NCBI GenBank assembly: GCA_026184775.1
Contig: JANCYW010000001.1
Span: 124,001 to 188,000, forward strand
Direction: 5' to 3'
Source of the DNA: Cyanidium caldarium
Lineage: Eukaryota; Rhodophyta; Bangiophyceae; Cyanidiales; Cyanidiaceae
Length of the DNA stretch: 64,000 nt
Positions 40,231 through 62,010 of this stretch are shown piece after piece. The notes under the pieces were generated by a model. It did not search any database, was not told the origin of the DNA, and saw only the letters and a list, made by a program, of their open reading frames with translations. Every line of letters starts with the position of its first letter. Position 1 is the first letter of the stretch. The translations under genes and the position numbers were made by a program.

Positions 40231-41061
40231 ATGCGACATTCCCATCTCCTGCAACTGCCGTGGGCACCGGACCCCTCGAAAGCACACGCCGAGCGCTTCT
40301 TCATCCTCTGGGGACCGCTCTCCATCGCCTTTCTCGTCCTCGGCGTCGTGGCCACCGGATGGTATCGCCAGCTGGACAGCACCGGGTACACGGTGGTGTC
40401 GCTGGGTATGGCACTGCCGTGTATGCTTGGTCCGGCGTGGTGGACGTGTGCGGCTGACCGTCAGCGTCGCTGGTGGGATCGCTTCTACGTCAAGGCCAAC
40501 GTGTGGAACGCGGTGTTCGGCTTTGTGGGCAACTATTTCTGGACGCACTACTTTTACCAGCTGTTGGGTGCACGGTACACCTTTCCCAACTGGCGACTCA
40601 ACGGGGTGCCGATCGCCTGCTATCTGGCCACCCAGGCGTACTTTTGCTGCTATCACACGTTCACCACGCTGGTGTTGCGGTGGGTGCACCGACGACATCC
40701 CGGAAATATGCTGCTGCGCTGGACGGTCATTCTGCTGCTGGCGTATACCACGGCGTTGGCGGAGACGGCCACCATCGCCGGGTTTCCGCATTATGCTTTT
40801 CGCGACCGTCGGTCGATGTACCGCATCGGGTCGGCGTTTTACGGTCTGTACTTTGTCGTGTCGTTCCCGATGTATGCGCGCATCGACGAGGCGGACGCGC
40901 GAGAACGTAAGCGCTGGACGTTATCGGCGGTGACGCTGGATGCGCTCGCTGCCGCCATGCTGGTGACGCTGTTGTTGGATGCGTGGCGGCTGACGATTGG
41001 CGCCATCGGTGCTACAACGGGTGCCCCGATACCCGATCGTCCCGGTTGGATGAGGCCGTGA
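40231..41061 (+). CDS. CPI1: cycloeucalenol cycloisomerase
   Basis: 276 residues with six or more membrane helices. It matches plant CPI1 in PDPSKAHAERFFILW, DRQRRWWDRFYVKANVW, VGNYFWTHYFYQLLGARYTF and NGVPIACYLATQAYF. The enzyme opens the 9beta,19-cyclopropane ring of cycloeucalenol to obtusifoliol and therefore shows that sterols are made from cycloartenol here, as in plants and other algae. It acts in the ER. The ATG at 40231 starts the family-conserved N-terminus. It lies 66 bp after the TOG gene. Confidence 0.95.
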   Translation: MRHSHLLQLPWAPDPSKAHAERFFILWGPLSIAFLVLGVVATGWYRQLDSTGYTVVSLGMALPCMLGPAWWTCAADRQRRWWDRFYVKANVWNAVFGFVGNYFWTHYFYQLLGARYTFPNWRLNGVPIACYLATQAYFCCYHTFTTLVLRWVHRRHPGNMLLRWTVILLLAYTTALAETATIAGFPHYAFRDRRSMYRIGSAFYGLYFVVSFPMYARIDEADARERKRWTLSAVTLDALAAAMLVTLLLDAWRLTIGAIGATTGAPIPDRPGWMRP

Positions 41062-53212: not shown

Positions 53213-53653
53213 ACTGCCTGGAGAAATGTATCGGTGGATAGATGGGAGTGACGCATCGGCTCTCATACGGCCTCCGAGTGATTTCCGCTCCGCGGTACCC
53301 CTCTCGATGGGACACGTCATTCGCGCGAATCAACGAACGGCGAGCGCGTGCACTGCACGATCCTCGCAGATCGCGTGGCCATGTGAGGCTGCCGCGCGCG
53401 CGATGCACGGGCGTATGGGATGCGCGCTGACGCATGGCAGCGGGCGGGCCGCGCTGGGGCGCGACGTTGCGCACCGCACGGCCACCTCGCGACTTTGCGC
53501 TCGACCGCAGAGGAGTGCTCCCGGGGCACGCATCGGTCTGTGACACCGCTGAGGGCGGACGGGCAATCGTTGGCCCGTGTTTGTAGTTGTCGCTGGGCAT
53601 CCGTCACCGACGGTGGTGGCGCTTGCTCTGGAGCGCGAGCACCGGTGCTATTC
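53213..53653. other. HSF upstream region
   Basis: 441 bp between SDA1 and the heat-shock factor. The HSF frame remains open to 53420 but with Arg/Ala-rich, family-free sequence. No tRNA, clear heat-shock element array or other gene was recognised. Confidence 0.4.
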
Positions 53654-55246
53654 ATGGGCAGTGTCATGAACAGCCGGCCGGACCCCAACAAGCCTGGCGC
53701 GACGCCGTTCGTGCAGAAAGTGTACGAGCTGGTGCAGGATGCGTCGACGGACGAGACCGTGGGTTGGGAGGCCTCGGGACGGTCGTTTGTGATACGGCGA
53801 GTGGGTGACTTTACCGAGGTGGTGCTGCCGAGCTACTTCAAGCACAGCAACATGTCTTCGTTCGTGCGGCAACTGAACCAGTACGGTTTTCACAAGGTGA
53901 GCCACGAGCGGTGGGAGTTTGAACACGAGTACTTCCGGCGGGATCGACCGGAGCTGTTGGACTCGATCAAGCGCAACCGCTCGGATCGCTCCCGGAGACG
54001 GGGCGGGGCAGCGGCCGCAGGTGCTGGCGGCACCGGCGGGCCGTCCGCCAGCGCGCACCACGCCAACCACATGCGAATGCTGCCGGGATCGGTGGAGACC
54101 AAATCCAAAGCGGACGCCGGCGCGCAGTACATCCGACAGCATGTGAACGTGCCGCGGGCGGCGTCGGAGTTTCTGGCACATCAGCACCAGCAGGGCGGCG
54201 AGGAACGTGCCTCCTCCAGCCAGGTGGATGTGCGACTGTCGGAGCGCGAGCGCCAACCGGTGTGGAGCGGACGCTACCCCAGTCGCGGCGCTTCTACGGT
54301 GGAGGTGGGCAAGTATGGCTCGATGGAGGACGAGGCGGCGCAGTTGCGACGAGATAACCGCGTGCTGATGCAGGAGCTGACCGAGATGCGACGCCTCTAC
54401 ATGAACATGGAGCAGCGGCTGTGCGAGACGGAGATTCACGCTGAGGAGCGTGATGAACACATGCGCCAACTGAAAGCGTTCATGTTGCGCATGTTTTCCT
54501 CGGTGGAGGTGCTGAACGCGCAGCTGATCAACGCGGGGTTGGACTTTTTGGCACTCGACCCGGAGTGGACGCAGGCGCTGCCGTACCTGATGGACAAGGA
54601 GAGCGCTGAGGGCGCCTCCGGTGAGGACAGCAGCGCTTTTGTGTCTCTGGACTCGTTCATGGACGCGTACAGCCAGCGGGCCTCGGCGTCGACCGGCGCG
54701 GCACCGATATCAAGCACGCTGCCGCCGCCGTTTGGGGAAGGCGCGGCCGGCGAGCGGCCGTCGGAATCGGGATCGGGCGCCGCTGCTGACAGCGCGCCGT
54801 CGCGGAGCGCGAACGCCTTCGCGGCCGGCCCGGAATCGCGCCTGTGCATGATGGATCTGCTGTCCAGCCCGATGACTGGCGCCGATGTCCACGGCAAAGG
54901 GGCAGCGGCGGCAGCACCGGACACGCCGGTGCTGCCGAACGTGCCGGCCGCCGAACAGTACCGACTGCTGCAGGGCCAGGGTAGCAGCGATCGCGAGCTC
55001 GAAACGCTTCAGGAGAAGATGCGCAAGATGTATCAACAAGAGCAGCAGCAACAGCAGCGGCGGGATGCGTTTCTCACCTGGCAGCAGCGCGGACCGCAGG
55101 CCACCGAGCCGACATCGGCGGATGCAACCGGCGATAGCGCGACTTCGGCGTCGGGTGCAGCGACCACGACACGAGCGTCCGCGCTGGAGGGTGTCGATTA
55201 CTTGTGCGAGCCGGAGGCGCCGTCGCGAACTGCCGGCTCGGTGTGA
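53654..55246 (+). CDS. HSF: heat shock transcription factor
   Basis: 530 residues. The DNA-binding domain (about 14-110) begins PFVQKVYELV and contains the recognition-helix stretch SNMSSFVRQLNQYGFHKV followed by the wing and FEHEYFRRDRPELLDSI. A heptad region (AAQLRRDNRVLMQELTEMRR) at about 220-275 is the trimerisation coiled coil, with a second predicted helix block up to 300. The C-terminus is Gln/Ser/Ala-rich (QQEQQQQQRR) and acidic in parts, as expected of an activation domain. The ATG at 53654 (MGSVMNS) is used; the frame opens at 53420. Role: heat and stress response. Confidence 0.95.
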   Translation: MGSVMNSRPDPNKPGATPFVQKVYELVQDASTDETVGWEASGRSFVIRRVGDFTEVVLPSYFKHSNMSSFVRQLNQYGFHKVSHERWEFEHEYFRRDRPELLDSIKRNRSDRSRRRGGAAAAGAGGTGGPSASAHHANHMRMLPGSVETKSKADAGAQYIRQHVNVPRAASEFLAHQHQQGGEERASSSQVDVRLSERERQPVWSGRYPSRGASTVEVGKYGSMEDEAAQLRRDNRVLMQELTEMRRLYMNMEQRLCETEIHAEERDEHMRQLKAFMLRMFSSVEVLNAQLINAGLDFLALDPEWTQALPYLMDKESAEGASGEDSSAFVSLDSFMDAYSQRASASTGAAPISSTLPPPFGEGAAGERPSESGSGAAADSAPSRSANAFAAGPESRLCMMDLLSSPMTGADVHGKGAAAAAPDTPVLPNVPAAEQYRLLQGQGSSDRELETLQEKMRKMYQQEQQQQQRRDAFLTWQQRGPQATEPTSADATGDSATSASGAATTTRASALEGVDYLCEPEAPSRTAGSV

Positions 55247-56688: not shown

Positions 56689-57627
56689 ATGAGAGCAATC
56701 ACCCTTCGTATACTCGCCTCTATATGCAGCTTGATTGTGTTGACGCTGTCGCTTTCCCTACTGGTTGGGGCTGCCCCTCGTGGGGTGCTGACTGGCGCTC
56801 AACCAGCCGGAGCACCTGCCGGGCGGTCGACGGACGCGCAGCACTTGCTGGAGGGCAGCAGGCCGCAAGACGTTCCCACCAGTCTCATTCTGGGTGAGCG
56901 TTTGCGTATGTTGGACGTGGTCGTAGACCGCTCCTCGAGCACCGCCAGCTGCACCAGCCCGCGCGGCTTGCAAGTGTCGTGGCGGTGGGTGAACCAGACC
57001 CTGGGGATTGTGTTGTGGACGATGCACAACCCGACCGACGAAACGTTGGCAGTCTCCCTCATTCGCGGCGCGCACCCTATGGTGCCTGCCTACTGTTTCG
57101 GCAACGCGTTCTGGCCGGCGTATCTGTCGCCGACCACAGCGTTTGTGGAGCTCGGCACCGGACCGTATCCGCCGCAGGAGGAACTGCCGGTGTACATGCA
57201 GCTGGCAATTTTGAAGGCGCAAAAACAGGGCATGTGTTTCGTGTTCACGGTGGCGGCAAATTCGTCTATCTATTTCACAGAGGCGGGTTTCCCGTCGCCG
57301 CTGACGCCGTATTGCGAATCCGTGGTAGATGTGGACTTTGTGGAGAACCGCCAGGCAGCCGTGGACTACACGGTGGAGAGCCACTGCGCGCTGTACTTTT
57401 TGCAGCAACGCGTGTTGCCGCCATACTGTTGCCCGAGCAATCCGGTGAAAGCCGAGTTCCCGGTGTACGCTTTCGCGAACAGCTCGGTGCCAGAGAAGTA
57501 CTATTACGACTCGGGCGTGTCCATCCATCTGGGTGCCGCCAACGGCTCCACCAGTGTCCAGTACTCGTGTTATACCTTTGGCGGCACGTCGAGCAATGCG
57601 AGCTGTTGTCTGGGAGTGAAAGTCTAG
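56689..57627 (+). CDS. secreted Cys-rich protein, Hint-less paralogue
   Basis: 312 residues. A signal peptide (LRILASICSLIVLTLSLSLL ending near VGAA) leads to a domain shared with the next gene: VSWRW...LWTMHNPTDETLAVSL, PAYCFGNAFWPAYL, GTGPYPP, GMCFVFTVAANS, PPYCCPSNPV and EFPVYAF. Six cysteines line up between the two proteins. Several N-glycosylation sequons are present. The protein ends SNASCCLGVKV, at the point where the neighbour's Hog cysteine begins. The domain is not one I know. Located 456 bp before its paralogue. The ATG at 56689 gives a proper signal peptide. Confidence 0.8.
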   Translation: MRAITLRILASICSLIVLTLSLSLLVGAAPRGVLTGAQPAGAPAGRSTDAQHLLEGSRPQDVPTSLILGERLRMLDVVVDRSSSTASCTSPRGLQVSWRWVNQTLGIVLWTMHNPTDETLAVSLIRGAHPMVPAYCFGNAFWPAYLSPTTAFVELGTGPYPPQEELPVYMQLAILKAQKQGMCFVFTVAANSSIYFTEAGFPSPLTPYCESVVDVDFVENRQAAVDYTVESHCALYFLQQRVLPPYCCPSNPVKAEFPVYAFANSSVPEKYYYDSGVSIHLGAANGSTSVQYSCYTFGGTSSNASCCLGVKV

Positions 57628-58083
57628 ATAAGATAGATGGAACGCCGAAGCGAGCGGCGAGTAGATACGGGTCAGCGTGAGGAGTGGAACGACGATCGCT
57701 TTGCAGACGATAAAGAGTGACTCTGTGAGGCAACTATCTTGCGGACTATCCGCGTCACTGCTGTCACACGAGGCATATGATCACAGTGCCGCTGGGCGGA
57801 CCCATGCAACTGCGCAGCTTGTGACCCTTTCAAGGGCTACCACGCCTCTTTTCGCTCACATCCACTCTCCTTTCCCGTTGCTGCGACTCCCGCTCGCCAC
57901 CCCGCCGCCAACCACTGGCTGGCTGCCCGCATCTGGACACCATTTCGTCCCCGTTGCTGTTCCGGTCACGTAATCGCCCGATGCGCGGCACACGGCACCG
58001 GGTTCGCGGTTCCGCCGTTCCCGGGGACGATGCGTGGTGTTGGCGTTCTCCGTTCCTCGGACAACAGTGTCACCCTGGTCAGT
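57628..58083. other. spacer between the paralogue pair
   Basis: About 450 bp. The next gene's frame is open from 58030. The rest is AT-richer than the surroundings around 57630-57790, then CT-rich. No other gene or RNA was found. Confidence 0.45.
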
Positions 58084-59634
58084 ATGACCCACAGAACATG
58101 GCTTCACCGATGGTGTTTCCTCTTGGTATTGTGTGTCACCGTGATCGCCTCATTTCCCGGTACTGACGCTGCAGACGTCGGCTCGAAGTGCGGGCCCGCT
58201 CTCTTTCAAAGCCCCGGCTCCAAACGGAACACCCTCTCTCAAGCCATCGCCGCGCACCAACGCACTGGCCCGCTGCCCGTCCCCCGCGTCGGCCGCACTT
58301 CTTCCTCCAGCTCTTCGTTTCCCGATGCCTCACAGAGCGGCCAACAGTGCAACAGCTCACTGGGCATGGTCGTGTCCTGGAGTTGGCAGAGCGAGTCGCA
58401 GGGCGTGGTCACCTGGAAGTTCGAGAACACCGCCAACGAGACGCTGACCGTAGTGCTGAACCGCGGTGCGCAAAACGAGGTCTCCAGTTACTGCTTCGGT
58501 GGCGCCTTCTTTGCTGCCTACATCGTGCCCGAGATCGGTCTGGCCTACATCGGCAGCGGGCCGTACTCGCCCATGAGCGGCGCCCTGAGCACGCTGCCCC
58601 TGGCGCTGGTTGATGACGACCCAAGCCGTGGCATTTGCTTTGTATTCACGGTAGCCACCGGTGACAGGGTGGAGGTCTCCGAGGGCGGTTTCTCCTCTTC
58701 ATCGCCACCGTTTTGCACCTCGATCCCGGACTTGCAGTTTCAGAACAACACCAACTTGAGACTCGACTACCAAGTGTCCAGTCAGTGCGAGCAATTCTAC
58801 TCGCAGACGGGATTGCCGCCGCCGTACTGCTGTCCGGCCAACCCGATTGTGACCAAGTTCCCGGTGTACACCTTGCGGGACGGCTCCATGAGCGGCCAGT
58901 TCGGACCGCAACAAGGCGACACCATCACTCTGAACGTGCAAGGCGACTCGTCGCCCACCAGTAACTTGTCGTGCCCGAGCAGCACGCACGACACCACCAC
59001 CACCACCAGCCTGCACTGCTTCCCGGGCGACGCGACGGTGCGGCTGCCCGGCGGCGTGATCAAACGCATGCACGAACTGGCCGTCGGTGATAGCATCGAG
59101 ACCCTGGCGCTCGATACCCGCACCCACACCTATCGTCGGTCGTTTACCACAGTTTATGCCTTTGTGGATCGTGTAGCAGAGGCGCGCTCGCTCACCTACA
59201 TTCAGGTGCAAGTGAGTGGAGCGGCAGCGGTTTTGGAGTTGACGCCAGAGCACCTGTTACCGGTGGCGCCCGCCGATATCGCATCGCACTCGTTCGTGCC
59301 TGCCAACGCTATCCGCGCGGGCATGCGTGTGCGTCGCCACGACGGAACTTGGGGGCGCGTGGAGCACGTGCGCCACGTCGTCCGCGATGGCGCTTACGCC
59401 CCGCTCACCCACGCGGGCACGCTGGTGGTGAACGGCGTCTGGGTTTCGTGCTACGGACACACCGCGTCGCACCGCGTAGCGCACTGGGCATTTGCACCGC
59501 TCCGCCTGTACGCCCGGCTGCAGCGCCTCCGGCCGGCGCTATCCGCCAAACCCACTGCCAGCATCCCGGCGGTAGGATTGCACCGTTACGCGCAGTTTCT
59601 GCTCGCCTGGCGTCGCCTTTGGCACAGTACCTAG
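58084..59634 (+). CDS. secreted protein with C-terminal Hedgehog-type Hog/Hint domain
   Basis: 516 residues. A signal peptide (HRWCFLLVLCVTVIASFPG) is followed by a Ser-rich stretch, the same Cys-rich domain as in the preceding gene (about 85-290), and a Thr-run linker. From C312 a Hint module starts with CFPGDATVRLPGG. The Hog landmarks are all there: nucleophile C312, D362 in AFVDR (the aspartate needed for sterol attack in animal Hog), the TxxH motif T387-P-E-H390, and the C456 of WVSCY. The tail HWAFAPLRLYARL ... GLHRYAQFLL matches the animal sterol-recognition region. Predicted: self-cleavage before C312, with a sterol joined to the N-terminal fragment. An upstream ATG (58030) would add 18 residues. 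Confidence 0.9.
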   Translation: MTHRTWLHRWCFLLVLCVTVIASFPGTDAADVGSKCGPALFQSPGSKRNTLSQAIAAHQRTGPLPVPRVGRTSSSSSSFPDASQSGQQCNSSLGMVVSWSWQSESQGVVTWKFENTANETLTVVLNRGAQNEVSSYCFGGAFFAAYIVPEIGLAYIGSGPYSPMSGALSTLPLALVDDDPSRGICFVFTVATGDRVEVSEGGFSSSSPPFCTSIPDLQFQNNTNLRLDYQVSSQCEQFYSQTGLPPPYCCPANPIVTKFPVYTLRDGSMSGQFGPQQGDTITLNVQGDSSPTSNLSCPSSTHDTTTTTSLHCFPGDATVRLPGGVIKRMHELAVGDSIETLALDTRTHTYRRSFTTVYAFVDRVAEARSLTYIQVQVSGAAAVLELTPEHLLPVAPADIASHSFVPANAIRAGMRVRRHDGTWGRVEHVRHVVRDGAYAPLTHAGTLVVNGVWVSCYGHTASHRVAHWAFAPLRLYARLQRLRPALSAKPTASIPAVGLHRYAQFLLAWRRLWHST

Positions 59635-60216: not shown

Positions 60217-60720
60217 CTTGGTGCCGAGACGCCCGTTTCGAACAGCACAACGCCGTTCAGTATGCACCGCAGAAGTGGTGTCCGAGAACCCGGCGTGAAA
60301 GACATCGCCGCCGATGATACGCACGAGAGACGGTGATATCCCGCGATACAGGAAATGCCCAGTATGAGAGAGTGCGTCGAGCGCCAGAGGGGGAAGGGTG
60401 TCGAGAGGACCGGTGGATCAGAGTGCAGTGCTTGGGTGCGCGAGTGCTGCGCGCAACCCTCCGATAAGGGAGAGGCACGATATAGCCTTACCGATCCAGC
60501 ACATCGGAGGAACGGTTTCCTGTGTGCGACAGGCCCACGTCCATCAGCACGGCATCACGTTCGTCAACCGCCGTCCCTCTTCTTGCCGCTCCACGCACTC
60601 GCCCTGCCGCTCCGCTTCTCAGCCGCTTTTCCGGCTCGGGACTGGCGAGGAGAAAATCCGCATACGACGTTTCGCTTGCACCGTTGGGCGCTTCGATTCG
60701 GAAACGGCGACGCTCTCCCC
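60217..60720. other. divergent spacer between YbaB and GPC1 genes
   Basis: About 500 bp that must hold two promoters. The GPC1 frame is open from 60355 but the sequence before its acidic start looks non-coding. No RNA gene was recognised. Confidence 0.4.
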
Positions 60721-62010
60721 ATGGAAACGGACGACGACAACAACAACAACCATCGCGCCTTGGAGACCAACACGGACGAATCCGCCATGACGTCCGAGGA
60801 CACCGTTCGAGAGGCGCGGCCGTCTTCCGTCGGCGCGAACTCCCGCAGCACCACGCCCGAAGCGGACGGCAGCGACGAGTGGGGCTACGATTTCGGCGAG
60901 GACTTTGACGGCCTGCGCTCCCTGTCGCTGGGCGACTTGTTCCTGCTGGGACACTTGTCCCGGCTGGAGGACCGGATTCGGCGCACCCGCAAGCGCATCT
61001 CGGCACAGCGGCGGGCGCTGGTGGAGCGCGCCCGCACTCCGGAAATTGTGCGCCTGCGGGACAAGCTGTCGTTTGTGCTGGGTCTGCTGAACGTGCTCGT
61101 CACCGAGCACGTCCTGCTGCGGCACCCATCCCAGCTGTGGAACTGGTATTTGGGCCAGATGATACCGTTGTTGCTTCTGCGTTACTACTTGTATCGCAAG
61201 TCTTTCCAACACTACTTCATGTACGACTACTGCTACTTTGTGCAGGCACTGCTGGTAGCATTCTACTTTGGCTGGCCGCGCAACCACCTCTGGCGACAAG
61301 CGATGTTCGTGGCGCTGTTTGCGTCCGCCAACGGGCCGGTGCTATGGGCGGTGGTCGCCTGGCGCAACGCGCTGGTGTTCCACTCGCTCGACAAGATGAC
61401 CTCGGTATTTATTCACGTGTTCCCGCCGCTGGTGACCTACATGGCGCGCTGGCACCCCGAGGTGGTGATCGACCTCGGCCGCCGGCGCGTGGGCATTTGC
61501 GACAGCGCCGCCGAATGCTTCGCGCTCGGTCGGCGTCGTCTCACCCTGGCGGTGCCCTTGGTGATCTTCTTGGTGTGGCAATCGCTGTACCTGTTGAAGA
61601 TATTGGTGGTGTCGCGGAAAAAGCTGGACCGCAATCCGGAGATGATCACCAGCCTGCGCTACATGACCCGGCGGGGCGGCTCCGGCCTGTATCGCATGTT
61701 GAACATATTCGGCACGCGATATCAGAACCTGGCGCTAGCTTTTTGGCAACTGTTGTTTACGGTGTTCACCTGCCTGCCCACCGTGCTCATGTGGCGATGC
61801 CGACGGTTGCACGAGGTGGTGCTGGCGCTGGTCGGGCTCACGCTGGTGTGGAACGGCAGCTCGTACTACTTTGAGGTGTTCGCCTCGCGGTACACGCGAC
61901 ATCTGCTGCAGTACGCGCGCGACCGCATGGACGCGATGAACGATCGTCGCGATGGCCAACCCGCTAGCAGCTCCTCCGAGGGCGCGAACGCGGAGGCCAA
62001 GGCTGAATAA
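60721..62010 (+). CDS. GPC1: glycerophosphocholine acyltransferase 1
   Basis: 429 residues with about eight membrane helices after an acidic N-terminus. Diagnostic stretches are YYLYRKSFQHYFMYDYCYF, SANGPVLWAVVAWRNALVFH and SLDKMTSVFIHVFPPLVTY, the DUF2838/GPC1 core. The enzyme acylates glycero-3-phosphocholine with acyl-CoA to make lysophosphatidylcholine in the ER, recycling the phosphatidylcholine headgroup. The ATG at 60721 lies upstream of an Asn/Asp run (DDDNNNN). Confidence 0.9.
   Translation: METDDDNNNNHRALETNTDESAMTSEDTVREARPSSVGANSRSTTPEADGSDEWGYDFGEDFDGLRSLSLGDLFLLGHLSRLEDRIRRTRKRISAQRRALVERARTPEIVRLRDKLSFVLGLLNVLVTEHVLLRHPSQLWNWYLGQMIPLLLLRYYLYRKSFQHYFMYDYCYFVQALLVAFYFGWPRNHLWRQAMFVALFASANGPVLWAVVAWRNALVFHSLDKMTSVFIHVFPPLVTYMARWHPEVVIDLGRRRVGICDSAAECFALGRRRLTLAVPLVIFLVWQSLYLLKILVVSRKKLDRNPEMITSLRYMTRRGGSGLYRMLNIFGTRYQNLALAFWQLLFTVFTCLPTVLMWRCRRLHEVVLALVGLTLVWNGSSYYFEVFASRYTRHLLQYARDRMDAMNDRRDGQPASSSSEGANAEAKAE

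Follow-up and report, generated by a model that had tools for sequence, protein, structure and literature searches.

A gene at 58084..59634 (+ strand) in DNA of Cyanidium caldarium raises the question of whether a red alga might attach sterols to secreted proteins by means of the Hog module known from animal Hedgehog. Its product of 516 residues is referred to below as C1 Hog. Positions without a prefix are those of the window, the whole stretch of 64,000 nucleotides that was analysed. By sequence, C1 Hog is a secreted Hog protein in which a Hint domain and a tail of sterol-recognition region (SRR) type are joined to a non-Hedgehog N-terminal domain, and its residues make sterol attachment plausible.

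Domain architecture of C1 Hog

An in-frame ATG at 58030 would lengthen the protein by 18 residues, giving a 534-residue version. The start at 58084 was preferred because P0002, a protein of 514 residues that is 87% identical to C1 Hog over its full length, begins at the equivalent position. Hydropathy exceeds 1.6 (19-residue segments) only where segments start at residues 6-12. This single N-terminal hydrophobic stretch agrees, on hydropathy alone, with the signal peptide expected of a Hog protein and with the original proposal that this red-algal protein is secreted. The predicted signal peptide comprises about residues 1-29 (58084..58170, +), its cleavage point being an estimate. No second hydrophobic stretch of 19 residues was found by hydropathy after the leader, either here or in the C1 Hog-less twin described below.

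The N-terminal domain and linker occupy residues 30-311 (58171..59016, +) and contain six cysteines (C89, C137, C185, C211, C235 and C250), invariant in all five aligned proteins, namely the four copies in this genome and P0002. Profile searches yielded no Pfam or NCBIfam match to this domain and, within the Pfam search, no kelch match anywhere in C1 Hog; no solved structure matched outside the Hog part. That the domain is not Hedgehog, as had been proposed, was borne out by the lack of a match to PF01085 (HhN) in C1 Hog and by a best E value of only 0.11 when residues 1-311 were compared by BLASTP with one Hedgehog. A PF01085 search of the genome was also empty, with no control genome positive.

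The Hint domain, residues 312-457 (59017..59454, +), is defined by its Pfam match and by alignment with 1at0 and 6tyy, both crystal structures of Drosophila Hint (PMC9163320), which align to C1 Hog from Cys312. The PF01079 (Hint) match covers residues 325-525 of the 534-residue version, equivalent to 307-507 of the 516-residue protein, with an E value of 4.8e-39 and 134.6 bits (cut-off 29.7). For comparison, the Vint model (PF14623) reached 16.9 bits, under its cut-off of 27. An intein is not indicated, since no intein family matched (Hint and Vint were the only families listed at E up to 1) and there is no C-extein, the protein ending with the tail. The best solved-structure relative was 6td6_B, 'Protein hedgehog' (8.3e-21, residues 320-506 of the 534-residue version), taken as the Drosophila protein because its Hint stretch reads like 1at0; its alignment runs past the Hint core into the tail. 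The tail itself, residues 458-516 (59455..59631, +), includes two helix regions, AHWAFAPLRL and GLHRYAQFLL, in which H467, F470, P472, R474, H500 and Y502 are conserved.

Conservation of the active-site residues

Cys312 (59017..59019, +) corresponds to Cys1 of the Hint domain, aligning with the first residue of 1at0 and with Cys1 in 27 of 27 animal-type sequences, and the predicted cut lies before it, after His311. Asp362 (59167..59169, +) aligns with D46 (D303 in Drosophila) and is the predicted general base activating the sterol hydroxyl, a role described in PMC9163320 and PMC13060885. Owing to an insertion it is the 51st Hint residue of C1 Hog, and D46 is used here as a Hint number. Alignment also places the TxxH motif at T387-P-E-H390 (59242..59253, +) and the cysteine of the SCY motif at Cys456 (59449..59451, +), equivalent to the C400 named for Drosophila in PMC9163320.

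Sequence searches with C1 Hog returned 44 distinct proteins, of which 32 were aligned with it and with the C1 Hog-less paralogue; the remaining 12 were its own entry and 11 animal Hedgehogs. Twenty-seven of the 32 rows were classed as animal-type, among them P0010, P0011, P0031 and P0032, which carry no source name. All 27 have Gly at position -1, Cys1, D46, the Thr and His of TxxH and the SCY cysteine. In their tails the first helix has His in 25, Phe in 26, and Pro and Arg in 27, and HWY is present in 27. At the same positions C1 Hog and P0002 read His (-1), Cys, Asp, Thr/His, Cys, then His, Phe, Pro, Arg and HRY. The expectation that all landmarks of animal Hog would be kept thus stands for Cys312, D362, T387/H390, C456, H467/F470/P472/R474 and H500/Y502; two positions differ from animals: residue -1 is His311 rather than Gly, and HRY replaces HWY. 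Where a bona fide Hedgehog has a Gly-Cys cleavage junction, C1 Hog has His311-Cys312.

Four rows besides P0002 fall outside the animal-type group. P0033, in which the Hint start is missing, departs from the animal pattern among the scored positions only by His at D46, and its HWY is complete. In P0049, D46 is again His, the Thr of TxxH is replaced by Ser and the SCY cysteine by Asn, and HWY reads HPY. P0025, from the diatom Seminavis robusta, also carries His at D46, with Ser at the SCY cysteine, and lacks HWY; P0047 retains Asp at D46, with Ser at the SCY cysteine and HPY. On this alignment C1 Hog matches the animal pattern about as well as P0033 does, and better than the other three. Replacing D46 by Ala in animal domains abolishes the transfer of cholesterol (PMC13060885); a His in its place (D303H) in Drosophila Hint retains activity and widens the choice of sterol (PMC9163320; PDB 6tyy).

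The sterol-recognition-type tail

A tail-only model was built from 25 animal-type tails; in the other two rows of that group, P0022 and P0037, the motif search detected no tail. The model scored the tail of the C4 Hog, one of two further Hogs in the genome, at 1.1e-10, C1 Hog at 3.5e-9, P0002 at 1.5e-8 and P0047 at 4.1e-5. Weaker scores were obtained for the third Hog, C16 (3.8e-4), P0033 (4.0e-4) and P0049 (0.67, no better than several shuffles); P0025 lay outside the set of tails scored. As a control, 9,000 shuffled tails, 3,000 each from C1, C4 and C16, gave a best score of 4.6e-3. The claim had been that the module is more than a generic Hint, with profile comparison and separate support for the tail named in advance as its test. 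The PF01079 match, together with a tail that scores well beyond the shuffles when taken apart from Hint, upholds that claim.

Mutagenesis of human SHH allows the tail to be considered residue by residue. In cells, Ala at H374, F377, R381 or any of H433-W434-Y435 drastically reduces the cell-associated product (PMC7242414). In vitro, H433A and Y435A fail too, and W434A works (PMC7242414). C1 Hog retains the equivalents of H374, F377, R381, H433 and Y435, with Arg in place of W434; the comparison covers these six positions out of a longer set in PMC7242414, which also names L382/L386/L390 and L447.

Related genes within the genome

A search of the genome (20 contigs, 8,787,356 bases) yielded three PF01079 matches: C1 Hog itself, C4:76680-77291 and C16:257706-258302, the latter two Hogs being 37% and 25% identical to C1 Hog. 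Four copies of the N-terminal domain are present, as two tandem pairs (C1 and C4), and in each pair the Hog-less gene comes first and the Hog gene second. The C1 Hog-less paralogue (56689..57627, +) encodes 312 residues with the same N-terminal domain, 35% identical to that of C1 Hog (E 8.7e-49), and without a Pfam match. Its C4 counterpart, located through the N-domain search, lies at C4:74394-75494, upstream of the C4 Hog gene (C4:75855-77330; P0027), whose product has Asp at D46 and a complete HWY. The Hog-less protein of C1 ends about where Hog would begin and that of C4 some 25 residues earlier. No Hog relic was found behind either in a permissive tblastn search of the two gaps (best E 0.015, antisense).

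A clear hydrophobic leader, with no later hydrophobic stretch, is present in the C1 Hog-less protein. Secretion is less certain for the C4 Hog-less protein, whose frame offers no more than a short leader-like stretch at a second methionine around residue 29. The N-domain tree joins the two C4 copies as sisters (96/97), a grouping that suggests that the Hog/Hog-less pairs either formed separately or were homogenised; the C1 Hog-less branch is long and unsurely placed. On either side of the C1 pair, 53420-55246 upstream encodes a protein of heat-shock-factor DNA-binding type (PF00447, 2.9e-30), and 60355-62010, downstream of the Hog gene, a multi-spanning protein with a DUF2838 match (4.3e-37).

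The third Hog gene (C16:257055-258335; L003) encodes a different N-terminal domain, present once in the genome, and its Hog has His at D46 and MGY for HWY. Its place in the Hog tree is beside P0033 (94/89). Both of these resemble the engineered Drosophila D303H protein (6tyy) in their His at D46, the difference being that theirs is natural and, in C16, combined with MGY. Since D46H in Drosophila Hint widens the sterol choice, the C16 protein may be a natural D46H variant with another substrate. A single origin of the three Hogs of this genome was marginally rejected (AU p 0.041, with long branches), a result on which we do not rely.

Outside the genome, P0002 was the only relative of the N-terminal domain found in two database searches, each of which scored the 7,999 candidates with the most words in common and may miss divergent relatives. 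Twenty pattern matches in viral contigs, inspected as possible carriers, included no relative by tblastn.

Cellular context

There is no sign of a Hedgehog pathway in the genome. Patched (PF02460) and the sterol-sensing domain (PF12349) gave no genome matches at E up to 0.001, with positive controls in 3 and 4 of 14 genomes, respectively. Judged by solved relatives, none of the three MBOAT matches is HHAT-like, their resemblance being to LPCAT3 or to DGAT1/SOAT. Palmitoylation of the Hedgehog type was considered and is not favoured, in view of these resemblances and because no Cys is present at the estimated mature N-terminus. C1 Hog differs from animal Hedgehog, whose Cys1, D46, TxxH, SCY, first-helix H/F/P/R and the H and Y of HWY it shares, in its lack of a Hedgehog signalling domain, its His at -1, its HRY and a genome with neither a Patched or sterol-sensing match nor an HHAT-like MBOAT.

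Cyanidium caldarium makes ergosterol and 24-ethylsterols (PMC8172173). Within the genome we found an ERG4/ERG24-family reductase (2.1e-80) and, as predicted, a CPI1-type cyclopropylsterol isomerase gene in the same 64-kb window (about 40231..41061, +; tblastn with an Arabidopsis CPI1 query, 43% identity over 265 residues, 2.6e-63). All that this CPI1 gene indicates is endogenous sterol synthesis in the alga. As a functional partner of C1 Hog it was rejected, the two being mere co-residents about 17 kb apart with other genes between.

PF01650 (Peptidase_C13), to which the catalytic subunit of GPI transamidase belongs, gave no genome matches, with one control over the cut-off. Nor were there genome matches to PF04113 (Gpi16), for which no control was positive, or to PF08288 (PIGA), for which the single control fell under the cut-off. 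Taken singly, these family searches are weak evidence for an absence of GPI anchors; GPI-anchor biosynthesis is apparently missing in the red algae analysed in PMC3797821.

Proposed mechanism and alternatives

With modest confidence, we lean towards a reading in which the N-terminal domain of C1 Hog would receive a C-terminal sterol anchor at the cell surface, through self-cutting before Cys312. The precursor would enter the secretory pathway by means of its leader. The Hint domain would then convert the His311-Cys312 peptide bond to a thioester on Cys312, aided by T387 and H390, and the tail would bring a membrane sterol to this thioester, D362 activating its 3-hydroxyl. The predicted products are a freed Hog fragment and the six-cysteine domain, esterified at His311 to a sterol that tethers it to the outer leaflet of the membrane. 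The sterol would be of ergosterol type, made by the alga itself, and the Hog-less tandem paralogue might provide a similar domain untethered. What the analysis shows is the module with its residues, the tandem pair and the lack of a detectable match to Hedgehog-receptor families; that C1 Hog is cut, receives a sterol and is held at the membrane is what we infer, as is its role in the cell.

Several observations favour a sterol anchor. The strength of the Hint match, the extension of Hedgehog chain alignments into the tail and the tail scores of C1 and C4 do so, as do the retained Asp at D46 and the equivalents of SHH H374, F377, R381, H433 and Y435. The lack of a second hydrophobic stretch in C1 Hog or its Hog-less twin is in keeping with it, as are the ergosterol and 24-ethylsterols of the alga and its CPI1 and ERG4/ERG24-family genes. 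Finally, wall-less haploid cells are the main site of expression for two of the three C. caldarium Hog genes (PMC13353863).

The main doubts concern the non-Gly residue at -1 (His in C1, Val in C4 and Asn in C16, where all 27 animal-type rows have Gly) and the HWY position, which reads HRY in C1 Hog and P0002, HWY in C4 and MGY in C16. In cells, the W434A change in SHH drastically reduces the cell-associated product (PMC7242414). Further weakening comes from the lack of a Patched or sterol-sensing partner among the genome matches and from the literature, in which sterol attachment is left open for the Hedgehog-related Hogs of nematodes and a sterol or similar adduct is only postulated for those of protists (PMC2362128). 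The non-Gly -1 residue and the Arg in HWY would be accommodated if C1 Hog cut itself with another nucleophile, such as water, another hydroxyl lipid or a wall component, the tail being an adduct-recognition region lacking sterol specificity. Such a region has been suggested in nematode Hogs, where the tail is termed the adduct recognition region and the adduct is unknown (PMC2362128), and the C16 Hog, with His at D46 and MGY, points the same way. Against this, Asp at D46 is found in C1 Hog, P0002 and the C4 Hog, C1 and C4 keep the equivalents of H433 and Y435, and their tails match animal SRRs far above shuffles. We regard another nucleophile as possible, if on the unlikely side.

It might also be supposed that the module is defunct, the protein remaining one unit with Hog as a structural remnant, and the two Hog-less paralogues do show that the N-terminal domain can manage without Hog. 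Between C1 Hog and P0002, however, the Hint domain (135/146 identical) and tail (52/59) are at least as conserved as residues 31-311 (241/281), and Cys1, D46, TxxH and the SCY Cys are all kept, making loss of function very improbable. Lastly, beyond its own entry and P0002 the top database matches of C1 Hog are animal Hedgehogs, as would be expected had the module been gained from an animal by horizontal transfer. The Hog tree speaks against such a gain, grouping C1, P0002 and C4 (99/98) outside all of the animal rows used (14 of the 27 available, their own group being 85/80, not starred). Hogs are, moreover, known from several red algae and other protists (PMC2362128), and the database search, which depends on exact words in common, passes over divergent relatives. 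An animal source is accordingly hard to credit.

If a sterol anchor were shown for C1 Hog, the sterolation of proteins would extend beyond animals, and a route to surface anchoring would be available in a lineage seemingly without GPI anchors. One could go further and suppose that in these algae Hog is a general C-terminal lipid anchor replacing the GPI anchor: wall-less haploid Cyanidium would tether secreted domains by Hog-made sterol esters and leave the Hog-less twins untethered, Hog would be an ancient protein-anchoring device, and animal Hedgehog one special use of it. We consider this extension improbable as it stands, and it is testable because the presence of Hog coincides with apparently missing GPI anchors. 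Haploid C. caldarium cells are transformable (PMC13353863).

Relation to published Hog proteins

The expectation that such a protein would be a new system was not upheld. As early as 2008, red algae and other protists were reported to have Hog proteins whose N-terminus is not that of Hedgehog (Burglin, PMC2362128). In Cyanidiophyceae, a 'hedgehog protein' gene was reported from the chromosome ends/subtelomeres of C. merolae (Cyanidioschyzon) in 2007 (PMC1955436), and kelch, trefoil and Hint genes from Cyanidiales in 2023, most of those in Cyanidium being >80% identical (PMC9812998). The Hog genes of C. caldarium are themselves already counted in print: in 2026 ten were listed for Cyanidiococcus, 17 for Cyanidioschyzon, three for C. 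caldarium and two for "G." (PMC13353863). The proteins described here come from the same algal class as those of PMC1955436, PMC9812998 and PMC13353863, and three is also the number that we find.

C1 Hog resembles the protist Hogs of PMC2362128, in which a Hog with motifs J and K follows an N-terminal region of unknown kind. That region often has conserved cysteines, and a signal peptide is present in those whose start is known. Unlike the untruncated red-algal and moss Hogs of that survey, which have Ser, Thr or Asp at the motif-J cysteine, all three C. caldarium Hogs keep Cys.

Sterol attachment by Hog outside animals is, in the available literature, only postulated, and by residue content the C1 and C4 Hogs are good candidates for it; the C16 Hog, in which D46 is His and HWY is missing, offers a built-in comparison within one organism. 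Available sections of the published accounts make no mention of the residue-level case for sterol attachment (two of the three Hogs), of the tandem Hog/Hog-less pairs or of the natural D46H relative. These are added here, with the coincidence between Hog and apparently missing GPI anchors. Our search of mainly open-access literature found nothing on sterol-attachment residues of algal Hogs, which is no proof of absence.

C1 Hog is unlike the subtelomeric, mostly >80% identical kelch/trefoil/Hint copies of PMC9812998: it has no kelch match, the other two Hogs share only 37% and 25% identity with it, and it lies at least 48 kb inside its contig. Indeed all three Hog loci are at least 48 kb from a contig end, against the subtelomeric copies stressed for Cyanidiophyceae in the available literature.
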